Below are positions 6,230 through 58,901 of a DNA stretch of 64,000 bases, in pieces. Made by a program: the position numbers and the translations under genes. Every line of letters begins with the position of its first letter. The first letter of the stretch is position 1. The stretch spans positions 124,001-188,000 of the forward strand of contig NZ_JPRI01000003.1 in assembly GCF_000737765.1 (NCBI RefSeq). The letters run 5' to 3'. Origin of the DNA: Chryseobacterium vrystaatense (lineage in GTDB: Bacteria; Bacteroidota; Bacteroidia; Flavobacteriales; Weeksellaceae). The notes below the pieces were generated by a model, which was not told where the DNA came from, did not search any database, and saw only the letters and a list, made by a program, of their open reading frames with translations.

Positions 6230-8030
6230 ATTCCTGTGAAACAGGCATTTTTCTTTCTCCGATCTGTTGTCGCCACATAGCGTAGTACAATCCTTTTTCG
6301 GCAATTAAATGACTGTGTGATCCCATTTCTATAACCTGTCCTCGTTCAAGTACATAAATTCGGTCTGCATGCATGATCGTACTTAAACGGTGCGCAATGA
6401 GAACCGTAATTTGTTCCTTTTCTTCTGAAATACTTTTTATGGTGGAGGTAATTTCTTCTTCAGTGATACTGTCCAGCGCTGAAGTGGCTTCGTCAAAAAT
6501 CAGTAAATGAGGTTTTCTTAAAAGGGCACGGGCAATGGCGATTCTTTGTTTCTCTCCGCCACTCAGTTTAAGTCCGCCCTCGCCAATAACGGTTTCGATT
6601 CCTTTTTCTGCCCGTTCCAATAAAGCGGTACAGCTTGATTTCTGCAAAGCAATTTCCAGATCAGATTCTGTAGCATTGGGATTCACAAAAAGAAGGTTTT
6701 CTTTGATTGTTCCTGCAAAAAGCTGGGTGTCCTGAGTGACAAAACCAATTTGATTTCTCAGTTCGTCAAAATCAAATTCTTTTCCATTAACCTTATTGTA
6801 AAAAATATTTCCTTCCTGAGGTCTGTAAAGTCCAACCAATAATTTCACCAATGTACTTTTCCCGGAACCACTTGGTCCTACAAAAGCGATGGTTTCCCCA
6901 TTTTTTACATCAAAAGAAATATTGTTCAAAGCTTTATACTGAGCAGACTGGTGTTTGAAAGAAACGTGTCTGAATTCCAATTCTTCAATAGCTCCGATTT
7001 GTTTTGGATGAAGCGGTTTTTCTTCCACTTCCTTTTTCATTAAGAGATCAAAATTATTAAGAGAAGCTTCAGCTTCACGGTAAGAAATAATGATATTCCC
7101 GATTTCCTGCATCGGTCCGAAAATGAAGAAACCATAGAACATCAGAGACAGGTATTGTCCGGGAGTAACAATATTCTTGAAAATCAAAAGTAAAAGAGTC
7201 ATCGTAATGATCTGTTGAAGAAAATTGACCATCGTTCCCTGAATGAAACTTAAAGAACGGATGCTTTTCACCTTCCTCAATTCAAGACCAAGAATCTTGT
7301 ATGTATTATTATTTAAACGGATAACCTCCTGATTGGTTAACCCCAAACTTTTGACAATTTCTATATTTCTTAAACTCTCTGTAGTACTTCCGGCTAAAGC
7401 TGTTGTTTCAGAAACAATATTTTTCTGAATACTTTTTATTCTTTTGCTTAATAAATTGGTGATAAATGCAATCAGAAAAATCCCGCAAATGTACACAGGC
7501 ATAATAGACCAGTGTAAACGGATGGCATATACAGAAACGAAAATAATACTGACTAAAATCCCGAAGAAAATATTAATGAAACTGGTAATGAATTTTACAG
7601 TATCTTCTCTTACCTTCGTTAAAATCGACAACGTTTCACCACTCCTTTGATCCTCAAATTCCTGATAGGGAAGAGCCATAGAATGTTTTAAACCGTCTGT
7701 AAAGATTTTCGCGCCAAACTTTTGAGTAATAACGCTTACTGCATAATCCTGAAAAGCTTTAGCAATTCTGCTGATCATCGCCGTTCCGATAAGTAATCCC
7801 AGGAAATAAAAAACACCATGGAAGGCACCGTCACCATATAAATATTGGTTCAGATTTCGGGGTAAGAGTTTTTCTTTATCAAAAAAATTAGGATGCGTGA
7901 CCAACTGATCCAGGATATTCCCTGTAATGGCCGGCGCAAATAAAGAAAAAACCTGATTAATGGTTGCCAGTAACAAAGAAAGAGCAATCAACCATTGGTA
8001 AGGTTTAAGGTATCTTAAAAGTATTTTCAT
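6228..8030 (-). CDS. ABC exporter, fused permease and ATPase (MsbA-like)
   Basis: A 600-residue half-transporter of the usual length. Six membrane segments occupy about residues 1-320. An ATPase domain follows, with Walker A GPSGSGKST (385-393), Q-loop in VTQDTQLF, signature LSGGEKQ (489-495), Walker B ending FDEATSALD and switch His in AHRLS. It would act as a homodimer exporting a lipid, drug or peptide; the substrate cannot be deduced. It is inserted between the genes for the two CoA-transferase subunits on the opposite strand. A candidate promoter -7 box lies just upstream. Confidence 0.85.
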   Translation of the reverse strand: MKILLRYLKPYQWLIALSLLLATINQVFSLFAPAITGNILDQLVTHPNFFDKEKLLPRNLNQYLYGDGAFHGVFYFLGLLIGTAMISRIAKAFQDYAVSVITQKFGAKIFTDGLKHSMALPYQEFEDQRSGETLSILTKVREDTVKFITSFINIFFGILVSIIFVSVYAIRLHWSIMPVYICGIFLIAFITNLLSKRIKSIQKNIVSETTALAGSTTESLRNIEIVKSLGLTNQEVIRLNNNTYKILGLELRKVKSIRSLSFIQGTMVNFLQQIITMTLLLLIFKNIVTPGQYLSLMFYGFFIFGPMQEIGNIIISYREAEASLNNFDLLMKKEVEEKPLHPKQIGAIEELEFRHVSFKHQSAQYKALNNISFDVKNGETIAFVGPSGSGKSTLVKLLVGLYRPQEGNIFYNKVNGKEFDFDELRNQIGFVTQDTQLFAGTIKENLLFVNPNATESDLEIALQKSSCTALLERAEKGIETVIGEGGLKLSGGEKQRIAIARALLRKPHLLIFDEATSALDSITEEEITSTIKSISEEKEQITVLIAHRLSTIMHADRIYVLERGQVIEMGSHSHLIAEKGLYYAMWRQQIGERKMPVSQE

Positions 8031-8047
8031 TCTAGTAAATAATGATG

Positions 8048-8055
8048 CAAAATTA
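8048..8055 (-). promoter_or_regulatory. Candidate -7 promoter box of the ABC exporter gene
   Basis: The minus strand reads TAATTTTG, an exact match to the Bacteroidota -7 consensus TAnnTTTG, 18 bases before the start codon. No clear -33 TTTG is seen at the expected distance. Confidence 0.4.
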
Positions 8056-8309
8056 GAGATATTATTTTGACTTATGATATTAACCTGAGCCCGTGTTAAA
8101 AAAATTAATATGATTTGTCTGTAAGCTGGAATTTATGAGATGAGGATTACGGGTTTAAGAGTAGCAGTGTTTTATTTCAACCTTAATTTCGTTTCTGAAA
8201 TACTGATCCAGGCTTTCAATTTCCTGACATCAAAAAAAAGAAATGTCCGAATGACAAAGCCCTTTTGTATTCAAGGGAAAAGAATTAAATTGCAGTTTAA
8301 GTTTTTATT

Positions 8310-8963
8310 ATGCTTACAAAAGAACAAATTGCTAAAAGGATTTCAAAAGAACTGAAAGACCGTTATTATGTAAACCTGGGAATTGGGATCCCAACATTGG
8401 TGGCCAACTACGTTCCAGAGGGGATTTCCGTAGAATTCCAAAGTGAAAACGGAGTTCTGGGTATGGGACCTTTCCCTTTCGAAGGCGAAGAAGATGCAGA
8501 TATCATCAATGCCGGAAAACAGACGATCACCATTCTGCCGGGAGGTTCATTCTTCGATTCAGCATTCAGTTTCGGGATGATCCGCGGTCAGAAAGTTGAT
8601 CTTACCATCCTTGGAGCCATGGAAGTTTCAGAAAACGGAGATATTGCCAACTGGAAAATTCCGGGGAAAATGGTAAAAGGAATGGGTGGTGCAATGGACC
8701 TTGTAGCTTCTGCAGAAAATATTATCGTTGCGATGATGCACGTGAACAAAGCTGGAGAAAGCAAAATCCTGAAAAAATGTACTCTCCCGCTTACAGGGGT
8801 CAACTGTGTGAAAAGAGTAGTAACCGAACTGGCTGTGCTGGACGTAACTCCTGAAGGATTCAAACTCGTAGAAAGAGCGCCTGGCGTTTCGGTAGAACAT
8901 ATTGTAAAATCTACAGAAGCCGATCTCATCATTGAAGGCGAAATTCCTGAAATGCAATTCTAA
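8310..8963 (+). CDS. scoB: 3-oxoacid CoA-transferase subunit B
   Basis: A 217-residue class I CoA-transferase beta subunit. The catalytic glutamate is E46 in the SENGVLGMGP motif. The preceding VNLGIGIPTLV and following GGSFFDSAFSFGMIRGQ and MGGAMDLV blocks are typical of the family. It forms the active enzyme with subunit A at 5462, from which a leftward exporter gene separates it by about 2.1 kb. The start at 8310 gives the usual N-terminus MLTKEQIAKRIS. A terminator follows immediately. Confidence 0.9.
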   Translation: MLTKEQIAKRISKELKDRYYVNLGIGIPTLVANYVPEGISVEFQSENGVLGMGPFPFEGEEDADIINAGKQTITILPGGSFFDSAFSFGMIRGQKVDLTILGAMEVSENGDIANWKIPGKMVKGMGGAMDLVASAENIIVAMMHVNKAGESKILKKCTLPLTGVNCVKRVVTELAVLDVTPEGFKLVERAPGVSVEHIVKSTEADLIIEGEIPEMQF

Positions 8964-8970
8964 ATAAAAT

Positions 8971-8997
8971 AAAAACCTTGTCAATGACAAGGTTTTT
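8971..8997 (+). terminator. Rho-independent terminator of scoB
   Basis: Inverted arms AAAAACCTTGT and ACAAGGTTTTT around a short loop, followed by a T run, eight bases after the scoB stop codon. Confidence 0.85.
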
Positions 8998-47290: not shown

Positions 47291-47581
47291 ATGAATTTGC
47301 ATATAGTAGCGCTTTTTAAGTTTAACGAAAACTATCTGATGGATGCCGTTGAACTTTTCCAAAACCTTGTCAAAGAAACAAGAAAAGAGGAAGGATGTCT
47401 TCAGTATGATCTTATTGAAGACAAGGATAATAAAGGAACTTTCTTTCTGATTGAGCTTTGGGAAACTGTTGAACACCATAGCAGACACCTTGGACAGGAC
47501 CACCTTCTGGATTTCCGCAAGGATGCTTCAAAAATGATGGAAAGTTCTGCGGAAGTTTTTAAAGGGTTTAAGATTTATTGA
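47291..47581 (+). CDS. Antibiotic biosynthesis monooxygenase (ABM) domain protein
   Basis: A 96-residue ferredoxin-like ABM domain protein. The blocks KEEGCLQYDLIEDKDNKGTFFLIELWET and HHSRHLGQDHL are typical of YgiN-like putative quinol monooxygenases and some haem-degrading relatives (IsdG type). It lies just before the haem-uptake region, but IsdG-type activity needs specific Asn-Trp-His residues that I cannot place. I therefore keep the general name. Confidence 0.8.
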   Translation: MNLHIVALFKFNENYLMDAVELFQNLVKETRKEEGCLQYDLIEDKDNKGTFFLIELWETVEHHSRHLGQDHLLDFRKDASKMMESSAEVFKGFKIY

Positions 47582-47752: not shown

Positions 47753-49045
47753 TTATTTTACGATAAGTTTTTTGGTTTCTGTGCTTCCTCCGAACGTAAT
47801 TTTTACCAGATAATTTCCGGAAGTCAGGTGAGATAAGTTCATATCCTGCTTATAGAAACCTGCCTGATTGGTAAGCTCTGCAGTGTATACTTTTTTGCCT
47901 GTAAGATCATAAACTTCTATGCTTCCTTTATTGTCGGTTTTTTCTTTAACATCAAAAAGAACAGTAACTTTTTTGTCAGCCGTTGTAGGGTTTGGATAGA
48001 TCCCGAAAGATGCCTTTTTGCTAACTTCTGTTATTCCTAAAGTAGCGGTGATCTTTTTGTATTTAAAGAACATATCTCCGGTAGTAGCACCTCCATTAGT
48101 AGTGAAGTACATTCTATAGTAATCATTGCCTTTTTTAACGTAATAAACAACATCATTATTGACTGTACTGATCCCTTTCCACGAATGACCAATTGTGGTA
48201 AGATTGGAAGAGAAGTTGGTATCTGCCGGTTTCGTGAATGTAGCGGTTGCCTGTGTTTCCTGTACTTTTGCCACTTTTACACTTGGCCCCTGAATGGCTC
48301 CGGTAAGCGGATACATCATCATGTTATTGTAGAATGTATAGTATTTGGTAAACATTAAATCCCATGCACTTTTGGATGGTTCCATATTAGGAACTTTAGC
48401 TCCTGTTGTGAATGAGAAATAGTTGAAGTAGGCATCATCTGTTCCATTAGCAATGGTTCTTGTTTCAGTAGGTCCCCATGCGGATCCGTCCCATTTGGAG
48501 TACTTAAACGTATATCCTGCAAAAGCATCTTCAATGGCAAACTTCACATAGGTATCGGAAGTAGTATATTTTAATACAAAAATTGCTTTTCCTTCAATAT
48601 GATGACTCATATAGTCATATGTTCCCCAACCAGTTGCCGGAATATTGGGATTTGATGATGTAATTGGGCCCTGTTCAAAAGCTCCCTGACTTATATCAGT
48701 AGTTTGATCCGGGTTATATAGTGGTTCGCCCCAACTTGCGATATTACTGATATTAATATTATCCCAATCTGACAAAGTGGTAGAAGCTGCATATACTTCA
48801 ATACTCATCGCATCATTAATTCTTGTTCCAAATGCAAAATTGGAATTTCTGTAAAAAGCAACATCCCAGGTTTTAGCTGGCTGTGATACAATATTACCAT
48901 CGGCAATGTTAAAAAACACACGATTTTGGTAGGATGGTCCCATCGTCATATTAGCCTGCGTGTATCCCAGTGCATCAGTTTGTGCAAGAACTGTCTGTTG
49001 AACAGAAAGAGCAAGTACCGATGCCAATAATAGTTTTGTTTTCAT
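47753..49045 (-). CDS. HmuY-like protein exported by T9SS
   Basis: A 430-residue protein with signal peptide MKTKLLLASVLALSVQQTVLAQ. The body resembles the HmuY lipoprotein encoded at 52271: KTWDVAFYRNS here against TDWDLGFYSGD there, and FNYFSFTTGAK...SAWDLMFTKY here against FNFFSFTAGST...KNWDLAFTTF there. A type A T9SS sorting domain follows (IYPNPTTADKK to TKKLIVK). HmuY proteins take haem from host haemoproteins. This one would be released or displayed on the surface through T9SS instead of being lipid-anchored. The promoter is overlapped by two Fur-like palindromes. Confidence 0.75.
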   Translation of the reverse strand: MKTKLLLASVLALSVQQTVLAQTDALGYTQANMTMGPSYQNRVFFNIADGNIVSQPAKTWDVAFYRNSNFAFGTRINDAMSIEVYAASTTLSDWDNINISNIASWGEPLYNPDQTTDISQGAFEQGPITSSNPNIPATGWGTYDYMSHHIEGKAIFVLKYTTSDTYVKFAIEDAFAGYTFKYSKWDGSAWGPTETRTIANGTDDAYFNYFSFTTGAKVPNMEPSKSAWDLMFTKYYTFYNNMMMYPLTGAIQGPSVKVAKVQETQATATFTKPADTNFSSNLTTIGHSWKGISTVNNDVVYYVKKGNDYYRMYFTTNGGATTGDMFFKYKKITATLGITEVSKKASFGIYPNPTTADKKVTVLFDVKEKTDNKGSIEVYDLTGKKVYTAELTNQAGFYKQDMNLSHLTSGNYLVKITFGGSTETKKLIVK

Positions 49046-49065
49046 AACTGATTTTTTAAATTCTT

Positions 49066-49084
49066 ATTTAGAATGATTCCACAA
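49066..49084. promoter_or_regulatory. Candidate Fur-type operator
   Basis: ATTTAGAAT (9 of 9), centre G, then ATTCCACAA (6 of 9 against ATTCTAAAT). It overlaps the -7 box and likely start of transcription of the HmuY-like gene at 49045. Confidence 0.5.
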
Positions 49085-49089
49085 AAGTA
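49082..49089 (-). promoter_or_regulatory. -7 promoter box of the T9SS HmuY-like gene
   Basis: The minus strand reads TACTTTTG, exact to TAnnTTTG. TTTAG, the likely -33, lies 20 bases upstream inside the palindrome at 49097-49115. Confidence 0.55.
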
Positions 49090-49096
49090 TATAATT

Positions 49097-49115
49097 ATTT
49101 TTAATCATTCTAAAT
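49097..49115. promoter_or_regulatory. Candidate Fur-type operator
   Basis: ATTTTTAAT (7 of 9 to ATTTAGAAT), centre C, then ATTCTAAAT (9 of 9). It covers the -33 region of the HmuY-like gene promoter. Confidence 0.55.
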
Positions 49116-49180
49116 AAAAACATGATTTTTATCGTGTTTACTTTAATTCTGCTTTATTTGCAGGTCTTATAGGGGATAGA

Positions 49181-49213
49181 AAAAAGCCGGCTGGAAATTT
49201 TCCAGCCGGCTTT
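49181..49213 (-). terminator. Terminator of the T9SS protein gene at 49241
   Basis: A 15-bp perfect stem, arms AAAGCCGGCTGGAAA and TTTCCAGCCGGCTTT, followed on the minus strand by T residues. Confidence 0.85.
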
Positions 49214-49240
49214 GTAAAGGTATACTGTCTAATAAACCTC

Positions 49241-50059
49241 TTATTTTTTAATAAACTTAGATTTAACTGTTGAACCTTCTGCAGTTTCAACAAGTAGATA
49301 GTAAGCTCCTGTGTGAAGTCCACTGATGTCAAATTTCTGTCCTTTTAATTTTCCTTCTGCAACTTTTTGCCCTGAAGCGGAGTAAACCTCGATATTTTTA
49401 GGTTCTGTTCTTGTGATGAATTCCAAGGCTGTATTATCTGCATTGATAGCAAATTTTAAGTTTTCCTTTGTTTTAGAAGTATCATTAACTCCTAAAGATG
49501 TAGAAGTATTATACACTACATCGTCAACCTGGATGGCTACGTGAGTTGCAGTTGGCGTAAATTTGAAAACAAGGTAAGAACCTGTAGATGCAGGGATATT
49601 AACACTTATGTTTTGGACTACACCAATTGTACTTACCGTAATAGGATTCCCAACAGGAACAAAAGTCGACATATCTGTAGTACTTGTAGATACTCCGATC
49701 TGAATAGTCCCAGGTCCCGGAGAAGGAGATACTAAGGTAGTTTTAAACGTTAAAGTTTTATTTCCTGCCGGAGCTTCGATCTGTGGTGAAATTAAATAAG
49801 AAGGAGCTGTTGCATTATTACCAGCATAAGATTGAATAAATCTCTGTGAATTATCAGTATCTAGAGCAGCTACAATCATTCTAGGCGGTACTGGAGGAAA
49901 TGTACCGGTAATTGGTGCAACTACAGAAGACCAGCCTCCTTGCGGAAAGGTCGTATTTCCAAGAGTAAAATTGTTGAAATTCTCATTAAGCGTCGCTACT
50001 TGTGCATTCGCTGTAAAAGCCGTAAACATTAATGTTGCTAAAAGTAGTTTTAATTTCAT
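49241..50059 (-). CDS. T9SS-exported protein with adhesin-like beta domain
   Basis: A 272-residue protein with signal peptide MKLKLLLATLMFTAFTANAQ. A beta-sandwich follows that looks like the cleaved-adhesin / choice-of-anchor-J type: an ENFNNFTLGNTTFPQGGW start, PSYLISPQIEAPAGNKTLTF and VAIQVDDVVY. A type A T9SS domain closes it (EPKNIEVYSASGQKVAEG to SKFIKK). Its promoter region shares a duplicated module with the HmuY-like gene at 47753 and is divergent from the haem receptor gene, so it is probably iron-regulated too. A direct role in haem capture is possible but unproven. Confidence 0.72.
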   Translation of the reverse strand: MKLKLLLATLMFTAFTANAQVATLNENFNNFTLGNTTFPQGGWSSVVAPITGTFPPVPPRMIVAALDTDNSQRFIQSYAGNNATAPSYLISPQIEAPAGNKTLTFKTTLVSPSPGPGTIQIGVSTSTTDMSTFVPVGNPITVSTIGVVQNISVNIPASTGSYLVFKFTPTATHVAIQVDDVVYNTSTSLGVNDTSKTKENLKFAINADNTALEFITRTEPKNIEVYSASGQKVAEGKLKGQKFDISGLHTGAYYLLVETAEGSTVKSKFIKK

Positions 50060-50071
50060 AACGTTATTTTT

Positions 50072-50090
50072 ATTTAGAATTGTTCCACAA
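50072..50090. promoter_or_regulatory. Candidate Fur-type operator
   Basis: ATTTAGAAT (9 of 9), centre T, then GTTCCACAA (5 of 9). It sits over the -7 box of the leftward gene at 50059, at the same place as the site at 49066 in the neighbouring promoter. Confidence 0.45.
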
Positions 50091-50095
50091 AAATA
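50088..50095 (-). promoter_or_regulatory. -7 promoter box of the T9SS gene at 50059
   Basis: The minus strand reads TATTTTTG, exact to TAnnTTTG. Confidence 0.5.
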
Positions 50096-50102
50096 AGTAT
50101 TT

Positions 50103-50121
50103 ATTTTTAACTATTCTAAAT
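50103..50121. promoter_or_regulatory. Candidate Fur-type operator shared by divergent promoters
   Basis: ATTTTTAAC (6 of 9), centre T, then ATTCTAAAT (9 of 9). It lies between the -33 and -7 regions of the rightward haem receptor promoter and over the -33 region of the leftward one. Confidence 0.55.
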
Positions 50122-50128
50122 AAAGCAT

Positions 50129-50136
50129 TATATTTG
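50129..50136 (+). promoter_or_regulatory. -7 promoter box of the haem operon
   Basis: TATATTTG, exact to TAnnTTTG, 16 bases before the receptor start codon. The candidate operator at 50103-50121 lies immediately upstream. Confidence 0.55.
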
Positions 50137-50152
50137 CCAAAATTTTTACTCT

Positions 50153-52255
50153 ATGAAGAAGAAGGTGCTTTCCGTTCTATCATTATCCATAGCATTTTGG
50201 ATGAACGCACAAGAAAAAGATTCTCTTAATAAAAACAAAATAGAGGAAGTTGTAATTACAGGACAATACACACAGCAGTCAATTAACAAATCGATATATA
50301 AGGTTGAGGTGATTGATGCTGAGCAGATAAAAAATATGGCGGCTACTAATGCAGCTGACGTCCTTAATCAGACTCTTAATATACAAATCACGCCTAATAC
50401 CAATTCCGGTAATTCTACAGCGAATATTATGGGTCTTGGTGGTAACTATGTAAAAATATTAATCGACAATATTCCTGTGGTAGGGGATACTGGTTTAGGA
50501 AGTAATATCGATCTTACTAAGATCAGCTTAAGTAACATCGAAAGAATTGAGATTGTGAAAGGAAGCATGGGAGTTGAGTATGGAAATGGTGCACTTGCAG
50601 GAGTGATTAATATCATTACTAAAAAAAATAGCAGTAAGAAATTAAGCATCAGGGCTGCCGTACAGGAAGAAACCGTTAGAGACGGTTATAATATTAAGAA
50701 AAAAGGAAAAGGAAGACATATTCAAAACCTGAATGTAGGATATAATCTGGATGATCACTGGTTTACTAATATCAGCTTCAATCATAACCAGTTTATGGGA
50801 TACGAAGGAGAGAAAGCCGGATATAAATACTTCGGAGAGAAACAAATAAGAGGGTACGAATGGAATCCTAAAGACCAATACGAAGCTACTGCATTGGTGA
50901 GATACACTAAAGATAAGACTTCATTTTTTTATAAAGTATCTTATCTGAACGAAAAATTTAATTTTTATAACCCTGTATCAATTCGGGAACCTCTTAATGA
51001 CGGGCAGGGAGGTGCTACTTATTTGGCATCGGACAGAGAATATAATACAAACAGATGGCTTCATCAATTTAATATTCAGACGAATCTGGGGCATATACGC
51101 TATATGGGAGATTTTTCTTACCAGAAGCAGGATAGAAAATTTTTTGACTATAGCTATGATATTCCTAACAGAACTACACTTAGCGAAAAACCTGAAAATT
51201 CATATTACAAAACAGATGTAATCTATTCAAGAGGGATGTTCAGTAACTTTTTGGATAGCAAAAAATTTGATTTCCAGTTAGGATATGAATTAGACTATAC
51301 CAATGGTTATGCTTCGCTTATTGCGGGAAATTTTTTTGAAAAAAGTTTAAAGAGAAAGATTTTTACTTATGGTACATTTCTATCTGCCGAATGGAATGTT
51401 TCTGATAAATTTTCCTTAAGACCTGGTGCAAGATTGTCAGTGAGTGAAAATTTTGACAATCAATTCAATTATTCACTTTCCGCCAGGTTGAAAACGTCTG
51501 AAAACTCTAATTTAAGAGGAGTTTTCGGAACGGCAAACCGTTACCCGACTTATGATGAATTATATACATATTTTGTTAATCTGAATCATGATATTCAAGG
51601 GAATCCTGACTTAAAACCTGAAAACGGATATTCTTTGGGAGTTTTCTGGGACCAAGGATTTTCAATCGGAGACGGATGGAAATTCAATTATAATCTTGAA
51701 GCTTTATATGTTGATTTAAAGGACAAAATAGAGATGGTAATGATTCAAAGGCCTTCAACTTACAAATACATGAATATTGATCAGTACAGAAGTCTTTTAT
51801 TTGGCGCCAATGCAAACATTGTTAAAGACCAGTTTACATTTGGGCTTAGAACTTCGTTAAACGGAATCTCCGTTTCAAAACAGGATATGGATATTAAATC
51901 CCCGACAGATTTTCAATATAATTTTCAGGCAGGAGCCAATGTTTCTTATAAATTGAAGAATATCAATACAGGCTTCAACCTTTATTATAAATATACAGGT
52001 CCTTCGAGACTGTACGTATTGGAGGCTGATGGTTTCCAGCTTGGAAAAAATGATGGCTTCCATATGATGGATTTCATTGTAAGTCAACCATTTTGGAAAG
52101 ATCGTTTAGAGCTTTCTGTGGGAGTTAAGAACATTTTTGATGTCACTTCTATCAATAGTTCTACTAATGCAGGGAATGCCCATACTGCAGGAAGCGATCG
52201 TCTGAACCTGTACTATGGAAGAAGTTATTTTGCAAGATTAATGTATCAATTCTAA
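50153..52255 (+). CDS. hmuR: TonB-dependent haem receptor (HmuR-like)
   Basis: A 700-residue outer-membrane receptor. After signal peptide MKKKVLSVLSLSIAFWMNA come a TonB-box-like EEVVITG (residues 32-38) and a plug domain (AADVLNQTLNIQITPN, then IERIEIVKGSMGVEYGNGALAGVINIITKK, split). The beta-barrel then ends in LMYQF with terminal Phe. The region ANRYPTYDELY followed by NPDLKPENG corresponds to the FRAP and NPNL boxes of haem receptors. There is no N-terminal carboxypeptidase-like extension. It heads the haem operon, 15 bases before the HmuY gene. Substrate inferred from the operon. Confidence 0.85.
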   Translation: MKKKVLSVLSLSIAFWMNAQEKDSLNKNKIEEVVITGQYTQQSINKSIYKVEVIDAEQIKNMAATNAADVLNQTLNIQITPNTNSGNSTANIMGLGGNYVKILIDNIPVVGDTGLGSNIDLTKISLSNIERIEIVKGSMGVEYGNGALAGVINIITKKNSSKKLSIRAAVQEETVRDGYNIKKKGKGRHIQNLNVGYNLDDHWFTNISFNHNQFMGYEGEKAGYKYFGEKQIRGYEWNPKDQYEATALVRYTKDKTSFFYKVSYLNEKFNFYNPVSIREPLNDGQGGATYLASDREYNTNRWLHQFNIQTNLGHIRYMGDFSYQKQDRKFFDYSYDIPNRTTLSEKPENSYYKTDVIYSRGMFSNFLDSKKFDFQLGYELDYTNGYASLIAGNFFEKSLKRKIFTYGTFLSAEWNVSDKFSLRPGARLSVSENFDNQFNYSLSARLKTSENSNLRGVFGTANRYPTYDELYTYFVNLNHDIQGNPDLKPENGYSLGVFWDQGFSIGDGWKFNYNLEALYVDLKDKIEMVMIQRPSTYKYMNIDQYRSLLFGANANIVKDQFTFGLRTSLNGISVSKQDMDIKSPTDFQYNFQAGANVSYKLKNINTGFNLYYKYTGPSRLYVLEADGFQLGKNDGFHMMDFIVSQPFWKDRLELSVGVKNIFDVTSINSSTNAGNAHTAGSDRLNLYYGRSYFARLMYQF

Positions 52256-52270
52256 AACAATAAATATATC

Positions 52271-53401
52271 ATGAAGTATTTAAAGATATTTTCATTTCTA
52301 TTCATAGTTGCGGCTGTACAGTCATGTATTTCTGCTGATGAAGATCCTGTATCGGTACCTCCCTTCACTGGTTCTGTATCGGATCCTGCGGTGGATGGAG
52401 CTACACAGCCTAATCAGGTTTGGATTGACTTAAGTGATGTGAATCCAGATACGAAAAAAGTCAATCAGGCTATTAATAAAAGAACAGACTGGGATCTTGG
52501 GTTTTATTCAGGAGATGATTACCGTGTGGTTCTTAACGGATCAATTGCAATGGCGGTGAGTAAAATACCCAATGCAACCAATATCAATAACGTGAAGGAA
52601 GCAGATGTTAGCAGTCTTATGAATCAGGTTGTGGTAGGACCTTTCGGAACATCTGTATTACAGTATGTTGATAATCCCAACGGTAATTTTCTGACACAGA
52701 CAACGGGAATCGCCCCTATTAAGGAAAATGATGCAGATAATCCTGTATATTTACTTAGCCTGGGGAAAAATATAGGATCTGCCACAAATGTTTCTCCTGG
52801 ATCTGTCTCTTTATCAGGAAGTTCCAGAGGGTGGAAGAAAATTCAGATTTTAAGAGCTCCAAACGGATATAAAATCCGATATGCAAACTTGAATGATACC
52901 ACTTTTAAGGAATATATCATCACAAAAGACGCAGAATATACTTTTAACTTTTTCAGCTTCACTGCAGGTTCAACTCTTCAGATTCAGCCAAAGAAAAAAA
53001 ATTGGGATCTGGCTTTTACCACTTTTACCAATGAAGTAGTAGACCCTTCAACCGGAGTGAGTGCAGGAAGCTATTTCTTTGCAGATTTTGTATTAACAAA
53101 TACAGCGAATGGAGTAGGTGCTTATCAGGTAAATGCTGTAGGTAATTTAGACCAGGCTTATAAATCATTCAAATTGAGTGATGTGGATGCAAGTAAATTA
53201 ATTTCAAATGATCAAAGAGCTATAGGAGATAAATGGAGAACGACAACAGGAACTACTGAGGTGGATGGAGCATTTGTTTACGCAAATCGGTTTTTTGTTC
53301 TAAAAGATGCTGAAGGGTTTTATTTTAAACTAAGATTTAACAAAATGAAAAACCAGGATGGGGAACGTGGTCATCCTAACTTCGAATTCGAACCTTTATA
53401 A
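52271..53401 (+). CDS. hmuY: HmuY family haem-binding lipoprotein
   Basis: A 376-residue lipoprotein; the signal ends VAAVQSC with C19 as the likely acylated residue. The HmuY pattern is present: TDWDLGFYSGDDYRVVLNGSI near the start, FNFFSF...KKNWDLAFTTF in the middle, and FFVLKDAEGFYFKLRF at the end. HmuY proteins sit on the outer-membrane surface and hand haem to HmuR. It is longer than the Porphyromonas prototype. The gene is in the operon between hmuR and hmuT. Confidence 0.85.
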   Translation: MKYLKIFSFLFIVAAVQSCISADEDPVSVPPFTGSVSDPAVDGATQPNQVWIDLSDVNPDTKKVNQAINKRTDWDLGFYSGDDYRVVLNGSIAMAVSKIPNATNINNVKEADVSSLMNQVVVGPFGTSVLQYVDNPNGNFLTQTTGIAPIKENDADNPVYLLSLGKNIGSATNVSPGSVSLSGSSRGWKKIQILRAPNGYKIRYANLNDTTFKEYIITKDAEYTFNFFSFTAGSTLQIQPKKKNWDLAFTTFTNEVVDPSTGVSAGSYFFADFVLTNTANGVGAYQVNAVGNLDQAYKSFKLSDVDASKLISNDQRAIGDKWRTTTGTTEVDGAFVYANRFFVLKDAEGFYFKLRFNKMKNQDGERGHPNFEFEPL

Positions 53402-53423: not shown

Positions 53424-54302
53424 ATGAAAAAAATAATTCTTGCAGCTTCTATTCTGATGGCAGTATATTCTTGCAAAAAAGAAGAAGGCGCTAAAAAAGA
53501 AAATACAACAGAAACATCTGCTGAAACTCCAAAAAGCAACAATAAAATTGTGACCCTAAGCGGTGGCGTTACAGAGATTGTAAGTGCGCTGGGCCACGAA
53601 AAGGAAATCGTTGGAACTGATGTTACAAGTACCTATCCTGAAACATTAAAGGCTACGGCTAAAGATTTGGGACACGTAAGATCAATGACCATAGAGCCAA
53701 TCATGGCGGTAAGTCCTACTTTGATTTTGGCTTCAGAAAAAGATATCAATCCGGAATTGATGACGAAGATCAAAGCTTCAGGAATCAAAACTGAGGTTTT
53801 CAAACAGGAATACACTGTAGAAGGAACTAAAAAACTGATTGCTGACGTAGCAAAAGCTATTGGAAATACAGATTATCAAAAATTAAATGATAAAATTGAT
53901 GCTGATCTGAAGCAGGTACAGCCAATTGCTAAAAAACCTAAAGTATTATTCATCTACGCAAGAGGAAATATGCTGATGGTTTCAGGTAAAAATACTCCAA
54001 TGGCTTCACTTATCGCTCTTGCAGGTGGAGAAAATGCAGTGAATGATTTCGAAGATTTCAAACCATTGACACCGGAAGCAGTAGTAAAAGCTAATCCGGA
54101 TATTTTATTCTTCTTCTCAACTGGACTTCAGGGTGCAGGAGGAAACGAAGGAGCTCTTAAAATGCCCGGCGTAGCACAGACTAACGCAGGTAAAAATAAA
54201 AAGATCATCGCAATGGATGGAGGGTTAGTTTCAGGTTTCGGACCTAGACTAGGAGAAGCAGCAGTAGGATTAAACAAACTTTTAATTGAGAACACAAAGT
54301 AA
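53424..54302 (+). CDS. hmuT: Haem ABC transporter substrate-binding protein
   Basis: A 292-residue lipoprotein (MKKIILAASILMAVYSC, C17). A class III periplasmic binding fold follows, with KIVTLSGGVTEIVSALG as first strand-helix and ATAKDLGHVRSMTIEPIMAVSP, MLMVSGKNTPMASLIALAGG and FGPRLGEAAVGL (split here) further on. It captures haem in the periplasm and delivers it to HmuU. Its last 17 bases overlap the permease gene. Confidence 0.88.
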   Translation: MKKIILAASILMAVYSCKKEEGAKKENTTETSAETPKSNNKIVTLSGGVTEIVSALGHEKEIVGTDVTSTYPETLKATAKDLGHVRSMTIEPIMAVSPTLILASEKDINPELMTKIKASGIKTEVFKQEYTVEGTKKLIADVAKAIGNTDYQKLNDKIDADLKQVQPIAKKPKVLFIYARGNMLMVSGKNTPMASLIALAGGENAVNDFEDFKPLTPEAVVKANPDILFFFSTGLQGAGGNEGALKMPGVAQTNAGKNKKIIAMDGGLVSGFGPRLGEAAVGLNKLLIENTK

Positions 54303-55326
54303 ACTATACTTTTATCTAACTATAGGTGCCGTACTGCTTGTCATTATAGCAGTACTGGCACTTAATACAGGAGTCTATGACTTTGGAGGAACATCACCCT
54401 TCAAAGTTTTATGGCAATATATAAAAGGTGACCCGGGATTATCATTAAGTGATCAATATGTAATTTGGGATGTAAGAACATCCAGGATTATCATGGCCAT
54501 TTTAATAGGAAGCATGCTGGCTGTTTCAGGGACAAGCCTGCAAGGGCTGTTCAAAAATCCCCTGGCAACCGGAGAAGCGATAGGTTTAACTTCCGGCGCG
54601 ACATTACTTGCCGCCATTGCCATTGTTTTAGGAGGGCATTTCAAACAATATCTTCCTGAAGTAGTGCAGTTTTCACTGGTAGGTATTTCTGCTTTTGCTG
54701 GAGCTTTATTAGCTATGATGCTGGTGTATAGAATTTCTACAAGCGCAGGAAAAACGAATGTTGTCATGATGCTTTTGAGCGGTGTTGCCATTACATCCAT
54801 CGGATTTTCAATTACAGGATTTCTTATTTATATTTCGAAGGATGAACAGTTAAGAGATCTTACCTTCTGGAATATGGGAAGTCTTGCAGCTGCAACCTGG
54901 ACAAAGAATATTGTTTTAACGGTTGTTTTAATCATTTCTTACATAATTTTGCTTCCGAAAGGAAAAGCATTGAATGCGATGATGTTAGGAGAAAGAGATG
55001 CTCAGCATTTGGGAATAAATGTTGAGAAACTGAAAAAGCAGATTGTGATCATCACTTCTTTAATGGTGGGAACATGTGTTGCATTTTCAGGAACAATTGG
55101 TTTTGTAGGTCTTATCGTACCTTATATTTTAAGGCTTTTATTTAAATCAAATTACGTTTTCATCTTACCGTTGTCGGCTGTTTTGGGGAGTGTTTTACTT
55201 TTGATTGCTGATACATTCAGCAGAAGTATTGTAGCACCGTCAGAATTGCCAATAGGTATTTTGACCTCCCTGATCGGAGGACCTATCTTTATCGCTATTT
55301 TAATTAAATTTAAAAAATCACTCTAA
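54286..55326 (+). CDS. hmuU: FecCD/HmuU family haem permease
   Basis: A 346-residue permease with about ten membrane helices. The FecCD blocks are present: WDVRTSRIIMAILIGSMLAVSGTSLQG, then FKNPLATGEAIGLTSGA and TIGFVGLIVPYILRLL. The start must be the TTG at 54286: the codon before it is an in-frame stop and no ATG or GTG exists before the first helix. It overlaps hmuT by 17 bases and shares one base with hmuV, which points to translational coupling. Confidence 0.9.
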   Translation: MRTQSKLYFYLTIGAVLLVIIAVLALNTGVYDFGGTSPFKVLWQYIKGDPGLSLSDQYVIWDVRTSRIIMAILIGSMLAVSGTSLQGLFKNPLATGEAIGLTSGATLLAAIAIVLGGHFKQYLPEVVQFSLVGISAFAGALLAMMLVYRISTSAGKTNVVMMLLSGVAITSIGFSITGFLIYISKDEQLRDLTFWNMGSLAAATWTKNIVLTVVLIISYIILLPKGKALNAMMLGERDAQHLGINVEKLKKQIVIITSLMVGTCVAFSGTIGFVGLIVPYILRLLFKSNYVFILPLSAVLGSVLLLIADTFSRSIVAPSELPIGILTSLIGGPIFIAILIKFKKSL

Positions 55327-56099
55327 TGATAAAAGCGAATCAGATCAATTATCTTCACAAGAATTTCCATATTCTTGAGGGCGTTGATGTCTCTTTAGAT
55401 TATGGTGAGTTTTTAGCGATTGTCGGACCCAACGGAGCTGGGAAATCCAGCCTTCTCAGTGTTTTGGCGAATGAAATAAAACAGGGCAAACAGGAAATTT
55501 TATTTAAAGACAAATCCATTGCAGACTGGGAAGTAAGGGAATTATCCCAGCATAAATCAAAATTTTCTCAGCATAATTCCAACGAAATTCCTTTGGATGT
55601 AAAAGATGTTGTTATGATGGGGCGGTATCCTTATTTCGATTCGCAGCCACGTCAGGAAGATTTTGAAGCGATGAATAAGATGATGTATGAAACAGATGTT
55701 TATCACCTGAAAGACAGAGAATACAATACACTTTCCGGAGGAGAAAAGCAGCGGGTTCACTTATCAAGAGTAATGGCCCAACTGGAAAATGAAATTGCAC
55801 ACAAAGTCGTTTTTCTGGATGAACCTCTTAATAACTTAGACATTAAGCATCAGTATAAAGCTCTGGAAATTATCAAGAACTTTACTAAAAAAGCAAACAG
55901 TGCTATCGTTGTGTTACATGACCTAAATCTGGCAGCACAGTTTGCAGACAAAATTTTATTAATGAAATCAGGAAAGGTTTCTGCATACGGAACTCCGCAG
56001 GAAGTATTCACGGCTGAAACGATCAGTCAGGCATACAATTTTCCGTGCACCATATGCGGACACCCTATTACCAATAACCCAATGATCATTTTTGGATAA
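55326..56099 (+). CDS. hmuV: Haem ABC transporter ATP-binding protein
   Basis: A 257-residue ATPase with Walker A GPNGAGKS (34-41), signature LSGGEKQRV (136-144), Walker B VVFLDEP (161-167) and switch histidine in VVLHDLNLA. Its start overlaps the hmuU stop codon (TAATG). It powers haem import through HmuU. The C-terminal tail contains two cysteines and a histidine (FPCTICGHP), a detail seen in some haem ATPases. Confidence 0.92.
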   Translation: MIKANQINYLHKNFHILEGVDVSLDYGEFLAIVGPNGAGKSSLLSVLANEIKQGKQEILFKDKSIADWEVRELSQHKSKFSQHNSNEIPLDVKDVVMMGRYPYFDSQPRQEDFEAMNKMMYETDVYHLKDREYNTLSGGEKQRVHLSRVMAQLENEIAHKVVFLDEPLNNLDIKHQYKALEIIKNFTKKANSAIVVLHDLNLAAQFADKILLMKSGKVSAYGTPQEVFTAETISQAYNFPCTICGHPITNNPMIIFG

Positions 56100-56101
56100 C
56101 C

Positions 56102-56752
56102 ATGGAAAAAGATGAATTAAAAATCCTCGCCCAAAACCTTGCCAATCCACAGGGCGAAAAAGGAATTGAAATTGGCGAAATGATGAATGCTACCAACATC
56201 AGCATGACATTGGAAAGCATTAAAACGCTTTTAATAGAAGATGATGAGCACATCCTTGAAATAGGACATGGTAATGCTGCACATCTGAAAAATATTTTAA
56301 GCAGAGCCCAAAATCTAAAATATACAGGAGTGGATATTTCCGAAACCATGTATAATGAAGCCAGAAAGCTGAACAAAAAATTTGAAGGCCAGGCCGATTT
56401 TGTACTGTATGAAGGAAAAAAACTTCCCTTTGAAGATAAAGCCTTTGACAAAATATTTACCGTCAATACCGTGTATTTCTGGGAGAATCCGGTAGAGTTT
56501 CTGAATGAAATCTATAGAGTTTTGAAAAAAGAAGGAACCTTCGTTCTGACGTTCGGACAAAGAGAGTTCATGGAAAAACTCCCTTTTACAGAATATGATT
56601 TTACCCTGTACAGCAATAGCGAAATGGAAGAAATCGTTTCTGAAAGCCAATTCAAGAGAATGAAAATTTCTGAAAAAGAAGAAGATATACCAAGCAAATC
56701 CGGAAACGAAACCATCCATAGAGTTTATACAGTTTTAACCATAAAAAAATAA
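56102..56752 (+). CDS. Class I SAM-dependent methyltransferase in the haem operon
   Basis: A 216-residue cytoplasmic methyltransferase with motif I LEIGHGNAAH (52-61), acidic motif II in YTGVDISETMYNEA (D78) and post-motif LYEGKKLPFEDKAFDKIFTVNTVYFW (split), as in Methyltransf_11 proteins. It starts two bases after the hmuV stop and ends four bases before the HemS-type gene, so it is firmly inside the operon. Its substrate is unknown. It is unrelated to the radical-SAM haem methyltransferases (ChuW/HutW) that open haem anaerobically. Link to haem handling is inferred from position only. Confidence 0.85.
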   Translation: MEKDELKILAQNLANPQGEKGIEIGEMMNATNISMTLESIKTLLIEDDEHILEIGHGNAAHLKNILSRAQNLKYTGVDISETMYNEARKLNKKFEGQADFVLYEGKKLPFEDKAFDKIFTVNTVYFWENPVEFLNEIYRVLKKEGTFVLTFGQREFMEKLPFTEYDFTLYSNSEMEEIVSESQFKRMKISEKEEDIPSKSGNETIHRVYTVLTIKK

Positions 56753-56756
56753 AATA

Positions 56757-57785
56757 ATGAGCACGTTAGTTAATGATCTAAAGGAAAAATGGGAGGCTCT
56801 GAAAGCAGAAAATCCGCATATAAGAATAAGAAATGCTGCCGCACAGTTAGAAGTAAGCGAAGCTGAGTTATTGGCAACAAACATAGGAGAAGGTGTAACA
56901 GTTCTTAATCCTGAATTTCCGGCCATCCTTACCGAAGCTGAAAAACTGGGAAAAGTAATGGCACTTACCCGTAATGACGAATGCGTACATGAAAGAAAAG
57001 GAATCTATCAGAATGGTGATTTCAGCAGTCCTCATGCACAGCTTTTTGTAGGAGAAGATATTGACCTTAGAATATTCCTTAACCATTGGAAATCTGCATT
57101 TGCAGTCGTAGAAGGAGATAAAAAAAGCCTTCAGTTTTTTGGAAAAGACGGACTTGCTCTTCATAAAATCTATCTGACAAAAAACAGTGATGAAGCAGCT
57201 TTTGATGCTATTACGGAAAAATTCAGAGCAGAAGATCAGAATTCAGTCTTAACTGTTGAAGCAGTGGCTCCTAAAGCTCCTGAGAAAGCAGATTCTGAAA
57301 TTGATGCTGAAGGATTCAAAAAGGCATGGACAGAATTGAAAGATACTCATGATTTCTTCATGATGACCAGAAAGTTCGGAGTAAGCAGAACGCAGGCATT
57401 AAGATTGGCACCGGAAGGATTTGCTAAAAAAATTGACAATGCAAAAGTGGTCAATGTTCTTGAAGATGCTTCAGAAAAGAATATCCCGATCATGGTATTT
57501 GTTGGAAACAGAGGAATTATTCAGATCCATACCGGAAACGTAAAGAAAACACTTTGGCATCAGCAGTGGTTCAACGTAATGGATCCAGATTTCAATTTAC
57601 ACCTGGATGTTACTAAAATTGCGGAGGCATGGATCGTAAAGAAACCTACCGAAGATGGAGAAGTAACGGCGATTGAAGTATTCAATAAAGAAGGAGATTT
57701 CATTGTTCAGTTTTTTGGAAAGAGAAAACCTGGAATCCCTGAATTACAGGAATGGAAAGATCTTGTTGCAGAATTAGAGAAATAA
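56757..57785 (+). CDS. hmuS: Haem-handling protein, HemS/HmuS family
   Basis: A 342-residue protein made of two homologous halves. H198 in KDTHDFFMMTRKFGVSR corresponds by position to the haem-coordinating histidine of Yersinia HemS; the first half has TRNDECVHERKGIY (H78). RRGIIQIHTG-like strands (residues near 258) and the final FFGKRKPGIPELQEW block are typical. HemS proteins carry or degrade imported haem in the cytoplasm. It is the last gene of the haem operon, followed by a terminator. Confidence 0.9.
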   Translation: MSTLVNDLKEKWEALKAENPHIRIRNAAAQLEVSEAELLATNIGEGVTVLNPEFPAILTEAEKLGKVMALTRNDECVHERKGIYQNGDFSSPHAQLFVGEDIDLRIFLNHWKSAFAVVEGDKKSLQFFGKDGLALHKIYLTKNSDEAAFDAITEKFRAEDQNSVLTVEAVAPKAPEKADSEIDAEGFKKAWTELKDTHDFFMMTRKFGVSRTQALRLAPEGFAKKIDNAKVVNVLEDASEKNIPIMVFVGNRGIIQIHTGNVKKTLWHQQWFNVMDPDFNLHLDVTKIAEAWIVKKPTEDGEVTAIEVFNKEGDFIVQFFGKRKPGIPELQEWKDLVAELEK

Positions 57786-57803
57786 TAATTAGATGATTTT
57801 GAA

Positions 57804-57846
57804 TGGACCGTTTTGCTTTTTTTAAATCAAGGCGGTCTTTTTTTTA
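57804..57846 (+). terminator. Terminator of the haem operon
   Basis: GACCG (57806-57810) with CGGTC (57833-57837), a T-rich loop, and a following run of eight or more T. It lies 20 bases after the stop codon. Confidence 0.6.
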
Positions 57847-58028
57847 AAGCAGATTGGTAGATTTACAGAAGAATAAATAAACTGCAATTTTTTTTCGATA
57901 AAAGTCATTAAAGCTTTTGAGACGAAGTTTTTAAATCAATACAAGTCTTTTGCGGTTTAGAATCAACGTGGAAATTTGTGATATTTGTAAAGAATCATTA
58001 AGGTAATTTGTATTTAAATAAAATAAAA

Positions 58029-58901
58029 ATGAAGAATATTTTCATAGCCGTTTTACTGGCAGGTTTCTGCTCTCTAAGCGGGCAGGATTTTAAAGCTTAC
58101 CAGTTTTATGATAAGAAGGGAAAAGAAGTAAAGACAGACAAACTGATTAAAGAGCTGGCTGAATATGATGTTGTTTTCTTTGGCGAAAATCATAACAGTT
58201 CTATCAATCACTGGTTGCAGCTGAAAGTGACCGAAGGTTTGTTTCAAAAGAAAAACGGGCAGATCATTCTTGGGGCAGAGATGTTTGAGAGAGACAATCA
58301 GGCGCAGCTGAATCAATATTTAGAAGGGAAATTTGATGCTAAAACATTGAAGGATTCAGCCCGTTTATGGACCAATTATCCGACCGATTATAAACCGCTT
58401 GTTGATTTTGCTAAAACAAAAAAGGTGGGTTTCATTGCGACCAATATTCCAAGGAGATATGCTTCCCAAACTTCAAAAGAAGGACTGGAATCTTTAAATA
58501 AACTGAGTGAGAAAGATAAAAGCTATATAGCACAGCTTCCGATCAAAGTAACACTCGATACTCCCGGATATCAGGAAATGAAAGCCATGATGGGGGATCA
58601 TGCAGAAGGAACGAAAGTCATGAATTTTATTTCAGCGCAGGCTACCAAAGATGCTACGATGGCAGAATCTATCCTCAAAAGTATGCAGGCTGGGAAAACT
58701 TTTATCCATTACAATGGAAACTATCACAGCAAAGAATTTGGTGGAATCTACTGGTACATCAAGCAGAAGAACCCGAATCTTAAAATGGCGGTGATCTCTG
58801 TTTTTGAATCTGAAGATCCAGAGCTGAAAGTACCGGCAAAAGATTATATCCCGACAGATTTCAATCTGATCATTCCGGCAGATATGACGAAAACATTTTA
58901 A
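58029..58901 (+). CDS. ChaN family haem-binding-type exported protein
   Basis: The start is at 58029 (MKNIFIAVLLAGFCSLSG, signal peptide); an in-frame TTG at 58008 is less likely. The 290-residue protein has the ChaN/DUF399 pattern: DVVFFGENHNSSINHWLQLKV near the start, ILGAEMFERDNQ, and PRRYA, TFIHYNGNYHSKEFGG near the end. Campylobacter ChaN binds cofacial haems and is associated with iron uptake. It follows the haem operon on the same strand. The 80 bases upstream include GTTTAGAATCAAC, a half match to the Fur-like sites. Confidence 0.82.
   Translation: MKNIFIAVLLAGFCSLSGQDFKAYQFYDKKGKEVKTDKLIKELAEYDVVFFGENHNSSINHWLQLKVTEGLFQKKNGQIILGAEMFERDNQAQLNQYLEGKFDAKTLKDSARLWTNYPTDYKPLVDFAKTKKVGFIATNIPRRYASQTSKEGLESLNKLSEKDKSYIAQLPIKVTLDTPGYQEMKAMMGDHAEGTKVMNFISAQATKDATMAESILKSMQAGKTFIHYNGNYHSKEFGGIYWYIKQKNPNLKMAVISVFESEDPELKVPAKDYIPTDFNLIIPADMTKTF

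Follow-up and report, generated by a model that had tools for sequence, protein, structure and literature searches.

In its phylum, no haemophore has been studied better than HmuY, which is mostly known in a lipid-anchored form next to a single receptor. In Flavobacterium columnare, the HmuY protein C6N29_01035 carries an HmuY domain together with a Por_Secre_tail and is presented in PMC9618737, citing Thunes et al. 2022, as secreted by the type IX secretion system (T9SS), so that a T9SS-borne HmuY is already in print for that species. The name hmuR does not occur in PMC9618737, and its passages on this protein name no lipoprotein partner. In Riemerella anatipestifer, the exported haemophore RhuH is described as stripping haemoglobin and working beside RhuA and the receptor RhuR; the HmuY-type RhuA binds haem and does not strip haemoglobin (PMC11967795). 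According to the same source, RhuH is reported in outer-membrane vesicles, and its gene is divergent, with a Fur box in the shared promoter and control by Fur. The HmuY-type gene of this Riemerella system, B739_1417, has been termed HmuY-like in PMC5429918. An Elizabethkingia iron-response paper does not mention HmuY. No report of a T9SS HmuY and a lipid-anchored HmuY in one locus was found in the open-access literature, although subscription papers lay largely outside that scope and absence is unproven. In this study, a haem locus with two relatives of HmuY was analysed in Chryseobacterium vrystaatense (assembly GCF_000737765.1, contig NZ_JPRI01000003.1, positions 124,001-188,000). All coordinates are those of this 64,000-nt stretch, hereafter the window, and the product of 47753-49045 is given the working name T9Y.

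T9Y is interpreted here, with moderate confidence, as an exported sister of HmuY that likely captures haem outside the cell. That the two proteins are related, one being lipid-anchored and the other exported by the T9SS, had been put forward in a preliminary description, and the positions and strands it gave for both genes are correct. The two proteins and their parts are as follows.

47753-49045, minus strand: T9Y, HmuY-related, 430 amino acids, with a signal peptide, two HmuY-like repeats and a T9SS type-A sorting domain (profile searches, hhalign)
48983-49045, minus strand: T9Y signal peptide, residues 1-21, with the mature protein expected to begin at Gln22 (read from the sequence; 96% of 46 sequences have Gln22)
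48437-48979, minus strand: first HmuY-like repeat of T9Y, residues 23-203 (hhalign)
48047-48436, minus strand: second HmuY-like repeat of T9Y, residues 204-333 (hhalign)
48602-48604, minus strand: codon of T9Y His148, candidate haem ligand (kept in 42 of 46 sequences; weak alignment with Porphyromonas gingivalis HmuY His166)
47756-48001, minus strand: C-terminal T9SS sorting domain of T9Y, residues 349-430 (PF18962 55.4 bits, TIGR04183 58 bits)
52271-53401, plus strand: HmuY lipoprotein, 376 amino acids (PF14064 83.9 bits, in two stretches)
52325-52327, plus strand: lipobox Cys19 of the HmuY lipoprotein, with an acidic DED next to it (Cys in 97% of 37 sequences)

The two spaced sequence blocks from which the relationship was first proposed are present in both proteins. 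The first block reads WDVAFY at residue 60 of T9Y and WDLGFY at residue 74 of the lipoprotein. The second consists of FNYFSFT at residue 207 of T9Y with WDLMFT 21 residues on, and of FNFFSFT at residue 225 of the lipoprotein with WDLAFT 20 residues on. A one-to-one BLASTP comparison yielded an E value of 8e-6 with 21% identity over 271 amino acids. For family comparisons, 46 T9Y and 41 HmuY sequences were used, including those of the window and chosen from 60 and 57 loci; these were also the alignments applied for structure prediction. Aligned with hhalign, the two families matched with a probability of 98 and an E value of 2.4e-13 over 313 columns. Addition of more distant members gave 9.1e-39, and a control in which one family was reversed gave 0.17. 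Profiles of both families were further applied to the 116 open reading frames (ORFs) of the window and to reversed versions of all 116. With the HmuY-family profile, T9Y scored 74.6 bits and the next ORF 9.5, and the T9Y-family profile scored HmuY at 55.7 bits and the next sequence at 4.7. Thus BLASTP, hhalign, the reversed control and the window profile test agree, and by these comparisons T9Y and the HmuY lipoprotein are homologous. A direct check against PF14064 was positive for the 52271 product (83.9 bits, cut-off 27) but not for T9Y, which had no match at E<=1. Among the 46 aligned T9Y orthologs, T9Y included, seven matched PF14064 at a lax E<=10, the best at 6.2e-12. Because T9Y falls below the PF14064 cut-off, it is called HmuY-related and is not filed as a member of that family.

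The two HmuY-like repeats of T9Y align with each other with an E value of 1.3e-7 in hhalign. With an E value of 5.3e-17, repeat 1 aligns with the first half of the lipoprotein, and repeat 2 aligns with its second half at 2.5e-29. Since the repeats pair half by half, T9Y and the lipoprotein are collinear, as if one duplicated protein had been provided with two exits. The T9SS sorting domain said to end T9Y was recovered well above the cut-offs of 23 bits for TIGR04183 and 27 bits for PF18962; a sorting domain was also seen in 37 of 39 wider T9Y proteins, and the translocon gene for SprA is present in this genome (TIGR04189, 2045 bits). In the 52271 product the lipobox was likewise found, as QSC19, and is followed by an acidic stretch that may serve as a surface-export signal. 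T9Y is predicted to be a T9SS type-A cargo and the 52271 product a lipoprotein.

The AlphaFold2 model of the lipoprotein has a mean predicted local distance difference test score (pLDDT) of 80.9. Its first eight structure matches had Z scores of 10.5-13.1 and root-mean-square deviations of 2.1-4.1 over 128-156 residues, and the next match had a Z score of 3.2. Four of these eight are HmuY or HmuY-like by title, and PinO, BfrB, BfrC and BF2707, also among the eight, are presumably HmuY-type. Foldseek alone placed the same chains on top, yet only with E values of 1e-3 to 1e-2. Because the matches cover residues 31-376 of the model, the fold may extend across the two halves of the lipoprotein. 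When the halves were aligned with each other, hhalign found 25 columns only (E 4.7e-5), a less clear repeat than in T9Y, and in two distant lipoproteins the PF14064 match is uninterrupted, covering about 300 residues in one and 270 in the other. The lipoprotein could be a single HmuY fold carrying a long insert, or it could consist of two interleaved repeats. Its PF14064 match, lipobox and model fold together identify the 52271 product as an HmuY-family lipoprotein. The predicted model of T9Y has a pLDDT of 75.4 and a predicted template modelling score of 0.64. By eye, eleven strands in its residues 165-332 occur in the same order as eleven strands in the lipoprotein model.

Further features of the locus are given below.

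49066-49115, no strand: paired half-site ATTTAGAAT-N32-ATTCTAAAT, 5' of T9Y (pattern search)
49241-50059, minus strand: second T9SS cargo, choice-of-anchor-J / cleaved-adhesin-like domain (NF038128 55.9 bits, TIGR04183 34 bits)
50072-50121, no strand: paired half-site ATTTAGAAT-N32-ATTCTAAAT, between the 49241 gene and hmuR (pattern search)
50153-52255, plus strand: TonB-dependent receptor, named HmuR by its position before hmuY (PF07715, PF00593)
53424-54302, plus strand: ATP-binding cassette (ABC) transporter substrate-binding protein, HmuT-like (PF01497 105.5 bits)
54286-55326, plus strand: ABC permease, HmuU-like (PF01032 279 bits)
55326-56099, plus strand: ABC ATPase, HmuV-like (NF010068 heme ABC ATPase 276.9 bits, cut-off 261)
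56757-57785, plus strand: HemS/ChuX-type haem protein (PF05171 259 bits)

On the haemin-receptor model TIGR01785, HmuR reaches 96 bits only (cut-off 317).

Sixty Chryseobacterium-type loci with T9Y were compared, of which L039 and L046 are short contigs and L016 has T9Y without the operon. Of the 60 loci, 59 show the receptor gene hmuR divergent from T9Y and 57 have the lipoprotein gene after it; in 55 a 49241-type gene lies between T9Y and hmuR. Forty further loci came from other genera, some within the family and some beyond it, and 31 of them hold T9Y, a receptor and a lipoprotein gene, ordered T9Y-receptor-lipoprotein in 17, receptor-lipoprotein-T9Y in 10 and divergently in 4. The rest comprise two loci with T9Y and a receptor only, six with T9Y alone in the stretch and one (L121) without T9Y; the rate from these 40 loci is biased, as three come from one genome (G002) and some were chosen for a nearby second weak match. 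Across 197 genomes of the family, T9Y was found in 78, the lipoprotein in 101 and both in 77 (Fisher p 7e-32, kinship ignored). Here a genome was counted as T9Y-positive if a match reached past the sorting domain; with tail-only matches included, the count would be 171 of the 197 at E<=1e-3. The lipoprotein gene is present in 77 of the 78 T9Y-bearing versus 24 of the 119 T9Y-less genomes. In a phylum-wide draw of 395 genomes, 17 showed a T9Y match above 180 bits.

T9Y and hmuR also share a promoter module. With spacers of 30-34 allowed, the exact pattern ATTTAGAAT-N32-ATTCTAAAT occurs at only two places among the 5,487,842 bases of the genome, 5' of T9Y and 5' of hmuR, and the reversed pattern occurs at none. 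At spacer 32 with up to two mismatches, one further place was found. The pair is kept 5' of T9Y in 57 of 59 loci, or 58 of 60 when up to two mismatches are allowed, and a second copy is present on the hmuR side in 53 of 60. T9Y-less lipoprotein loci, examined for 20 of 24 genomes, keep the hmuR copy in 12 of the 20. In locus L159, where T9Y is absent, a second copy of the pair is found at position 10594, where T9Y would start, and it looks like a remnant of T9Y loss. In locus L131 (genome G384), the T9Y gene at 7666-8973 has no receptor within 16 kb and carries a paired half-site 70 bases 5', with a spacer of 33 and one mismatch. Each half of the pair anchors a box resembling the Riemerella Fur boxes printed in PMC5609570; the best box per half scores 16/19, which was reached in 1 of 300 shuffles. 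Single Fur-like boxes with up to two mismatches occur at 13 genomic places (control, 2).

A candidate haem ligand of T9Y was sought among conserved residues. His148, behind a conserved G-W-G-x-Y, is the sole His column at 50% or more among the 46 T9Y proteins, which come from several families. His287 was dropped as a ligand, since 13 of 46 sequences have His at this position and 25 have Tyr. The haem site is likely to involve the first repeat, with His148 as the candidate residue. In the proposed mechanism, an ancestral double-length HmuY-type protein would have given rise to two forms, the lipoprotein beside HmuR and T9Y, the latter carrying a T9SS tail where the former has its lipid anchor, and for that reason displayed on the cell or released. 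Low iron would free both promoters, probably by Fur. T9Y would then most likely capture extracellular haem at the site suggested above, and the haem may pass to HmuR either directly or through the lipoprotein, and from there to HmuTUV and HemS.

Several observations weigh against this assignment. In P. gingivalis HmuY, His166 is one of two known haem ligands, and its alignment with His148, obtained with repeat 1 against an HmuY fragment, is weak (probability 35, E 4e-4); the position of His134, the other place compared, is a gap in the T9Y alignment. In the structure search with the T9Y model, the immunoglobulin-like tail dominates the matches, with the VIA rows almost wholly on residues 337-430, and no HmuY chain is among the best 50 matches listed per search for the full model, these lists being tail-dominated. 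Fur control of the T9Y and hmuR promoters is probable from half-site likeness, and among the ORFs beside the 13 single-box places, neighbours only being considered, no obvious iron-gene set was seen. T9Y is missing in 24 of the 101 lipoprotein-bearing family genomes, interrupted by stops in contig C2 of G136 and shortened to 341 amino acids in L051 (8001-9023), and is therefore dispensable. Deletion of the T9SS-type hmuY in F. columnare is described as leaving growth and virulence unimpaired in the conditions employed (PMC9618737). To these points is added the inheritance of hmuR and hmuY.

Two allele classes of hmuR-hmuY were found, with the class of L057 assigned by hand; class changes were counted on trees of 54 and 51 loci, shuffles and identity correlations used 51, and loci without a full-length gene were omitted. 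The classes change a single time on each of the HmuR and HmuY trees, 9 times for T9Y, 11 for the neighbour 46315, 14 for HmuT and 13 for HmuU, with a shuffled mean of about 17. Because the values of T9Y and 46315 are just under all 100 shuffles (minimum 10 and 13, respectively), kinship is still visible. Between L032 and L049, compared within 54 of the 60 loci, T9Y is 98% identical, HmuR 59% and HmuY 49%. Identity matrices correlate at 0.86 for HmuR and HmuY, 0.36 for T9Y and HmuR, and 0.53 for T9Y and 46315, an unrelated neighbour. HmuR and HmuY travel as a unit, and T9Y often stays behind. Across L003-L062, the allele pair corresponding to 50153-53401 is seen swapped between close strains with the flanking genes kept, as if the receptor were under pressure to change. 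Allele exchange beside a near-unchanged T9Y argues against tight protein matching and is compatible with passive haem transfer, and the pattern fits T9Y passing haem without a specific partner. Of the preliminary description, two HmuY relatives with a lipobox and a T9SS tail in one haem locus are borne out, and strong linkage and a shared promoter module are seen besides, but its relay from T9Y over HmuY to HmuR, as far as it needs matched contacts, is made less likely by this exchange. Such a strict relay, in which T9Y removes haem from haemoglobin and docks on HmuY, and HmuY on HmuR, is a narrower form of the interpretation preferred here and is doubtful. Gene linkage and the finding that T9Y depends on the lipoprotein gene but not the reverse would agree with it, as would the 9 class changes of T9Y, which point to some joint inheritance, and RhuH, RhuA and RhuR provide a precedent (PMC11967795); against it stand the exchange of hmuR-hmuY without T9Y and the low T9Y-HmuR correlation.

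Other functions were considered for T9Y. Type-A T9SS cargos are described as covalently surface-held (PMC9143113), and T9Y might be a surface-held haem store or toxicity buffer and no scavenger that feeds a receptor. However, the half-site module resembles Fur boxes, by which expression in low iron is expected, when a buffer would be least needed, so this role is quite improbable. It is also unlikely that T9Y uses the HmuY scaffold for binding haemoglobin, another tetrapyrrole or a host surface instead of haem. Such a change could explain why no second conserved His or Met ligand was seen over the 46 T9Y sequences and no conserved His over 37 lipoprotein sequences, unlike the His/His or Met/Met ligand pairs described for characterised HmuY proteins (PMC11967795). 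On the other hand, His148 is kept in 42 of the 46 T9Y proteins, and the HmuY-type proteins HfpY and RhuA are reported to bind haem (PMC9331221, PMC11967795). Chance likeness from the compositional bias of beta-rich exported proteins would agree with the missing PF14064 match of T9Y alone, but can be dismissed for practical purposes, as hhalign gave 9e-39 versus 0.17 for the reversed control and each family profile clearly finds only the pair among the ORFs of the window. Capture of haem outside the cell by an exported sister of HmuY is thus the interpretation retained.

The 49241 gene, which uses the hmuR promoter region, encodes a second T9SS cargo that was missing from the preliminary description. 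A profile built from 12 members matches the adhesin domains of Lys-gingipain (3m1h, E 7e-4; 4itc, E 0.009), and a long relative in L158 matches PF07675 Cleaved_Adhesin with 24.0 bits (cut-off 21.4), with no gingipain match by phmmer for this relative. On a model for T9SS surface endonucleases, the 49241 product yields 50 bits, far under the cut-off of 260. In 14 of the 20 T9Y-less loci, hmuR has a 49241-type gene as its neighbour on the upstream side. Gingipain adhesin domains are described as binding haem and haemoglobin (PMC10100897). Downstream, the haem locus extends over 56102-58901 on the plus strand and includes the 56102 ORF, labelled methyltransferase-like from its appearance only, the HemS/ChuX protein at 56757 and, at 58008, a haem-binding protein of the ChaN type. 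On the other side, an ABM-domain protein (PF03992) is encoded at 47291-47581 on the plus strand, convergent with T9Y, and adjoins T9Y in many loci. The ABM fold family includes some haem-degrading monooxygenases.

A wider arrangement is suggested only tentatively and may well prove wrong. Flavobacteriales and some other Bacteroidota could possess a two-layer HmuY system, in which T9Y strips or collects haem away from the receptor and the lipid-anchored HmuY receives it at HmuR. In Chryseobacterium-type loci, the Lys-gingipain-adhesin-related second cargo would keep haemoglobin close by, and the locus, without gingipains, would achieve what P. gingivalis achieves with gingipain adhesins plus HmuY. 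Should an exported sister be a regular third component in many relatives, single-gene deletions in one locus would allow a test of how HmuY-type systems gain access to haem bound by other proteins. A candidate role would also be given to a group of T9SS-tailed proteins, many of them missed by the Pfam HmuY model, which matched 7 of 46.

Kinship of T9Y with RhuH was considered and rejected, as neither T9Y nor its profile matched 8xjc up to E 10 and T9Y had no PF20311 match at E<=1. No RhuH match was found in this genome. In the 197 family genomes, RhuH was above the cut-off in 16, and 8 of these also have T9Y, which rules out T9Y and RhuH as mutually exclusive alternatives; in genome G025, one locus with T9Y has a RhuH gene after the lipoprotein gene. 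In L168 and L171, DUF6607 (PF20311) genes that are RhuH relatives adjoin hmuY, and the one in L171 matches 8xjc with an E value of 6e-95. For PF20311, a family of unknown function, this kinship provides a likely role.

Compared with the described systems, the locus resembles HmuY/HmuR of P. gingivalis and the proteins Tfo, PinO, Bvu, BfrB and BfrC in having a lipoprotein HmuY beside a TonB-dependent receptor, and the 52271 product matches both PF14064 and HmuY crystal structures. The solved HmuY-type chains comprise 175-200 residues, whereas both forms found here are about double that length and one has a T9SS tail. In the combination of an HmuY domain with a T9SS tail, T9Y is like the F. columnare protein (PMC9618737). 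The RhuH-RhuR-RhuA system, as described in PMC11967795, is alike in its divergent exported haemophore gene beside receptor and HmuY-type genes and in its Fur box, for which the locus here has Fur-like half-sites, but RhuH belongs to PF20311/DUF6607 and T9Y is HmuY-related. HfpR/HfpY of Flavobacterium psychrophilum likewise unites an iron-controlled receptor with a haem-binding HmuY-type protein; its operon is described with one HmuY-type protein and a DoxX-family gene between, unlike the two HmuY-type proteins here (PMC9331221). The pairing of T9Y with the lipoprotein is genuine and conserved, and two copies of one promoter module precede it; it belongs to the Hmu system as a variant and is not a new kind.

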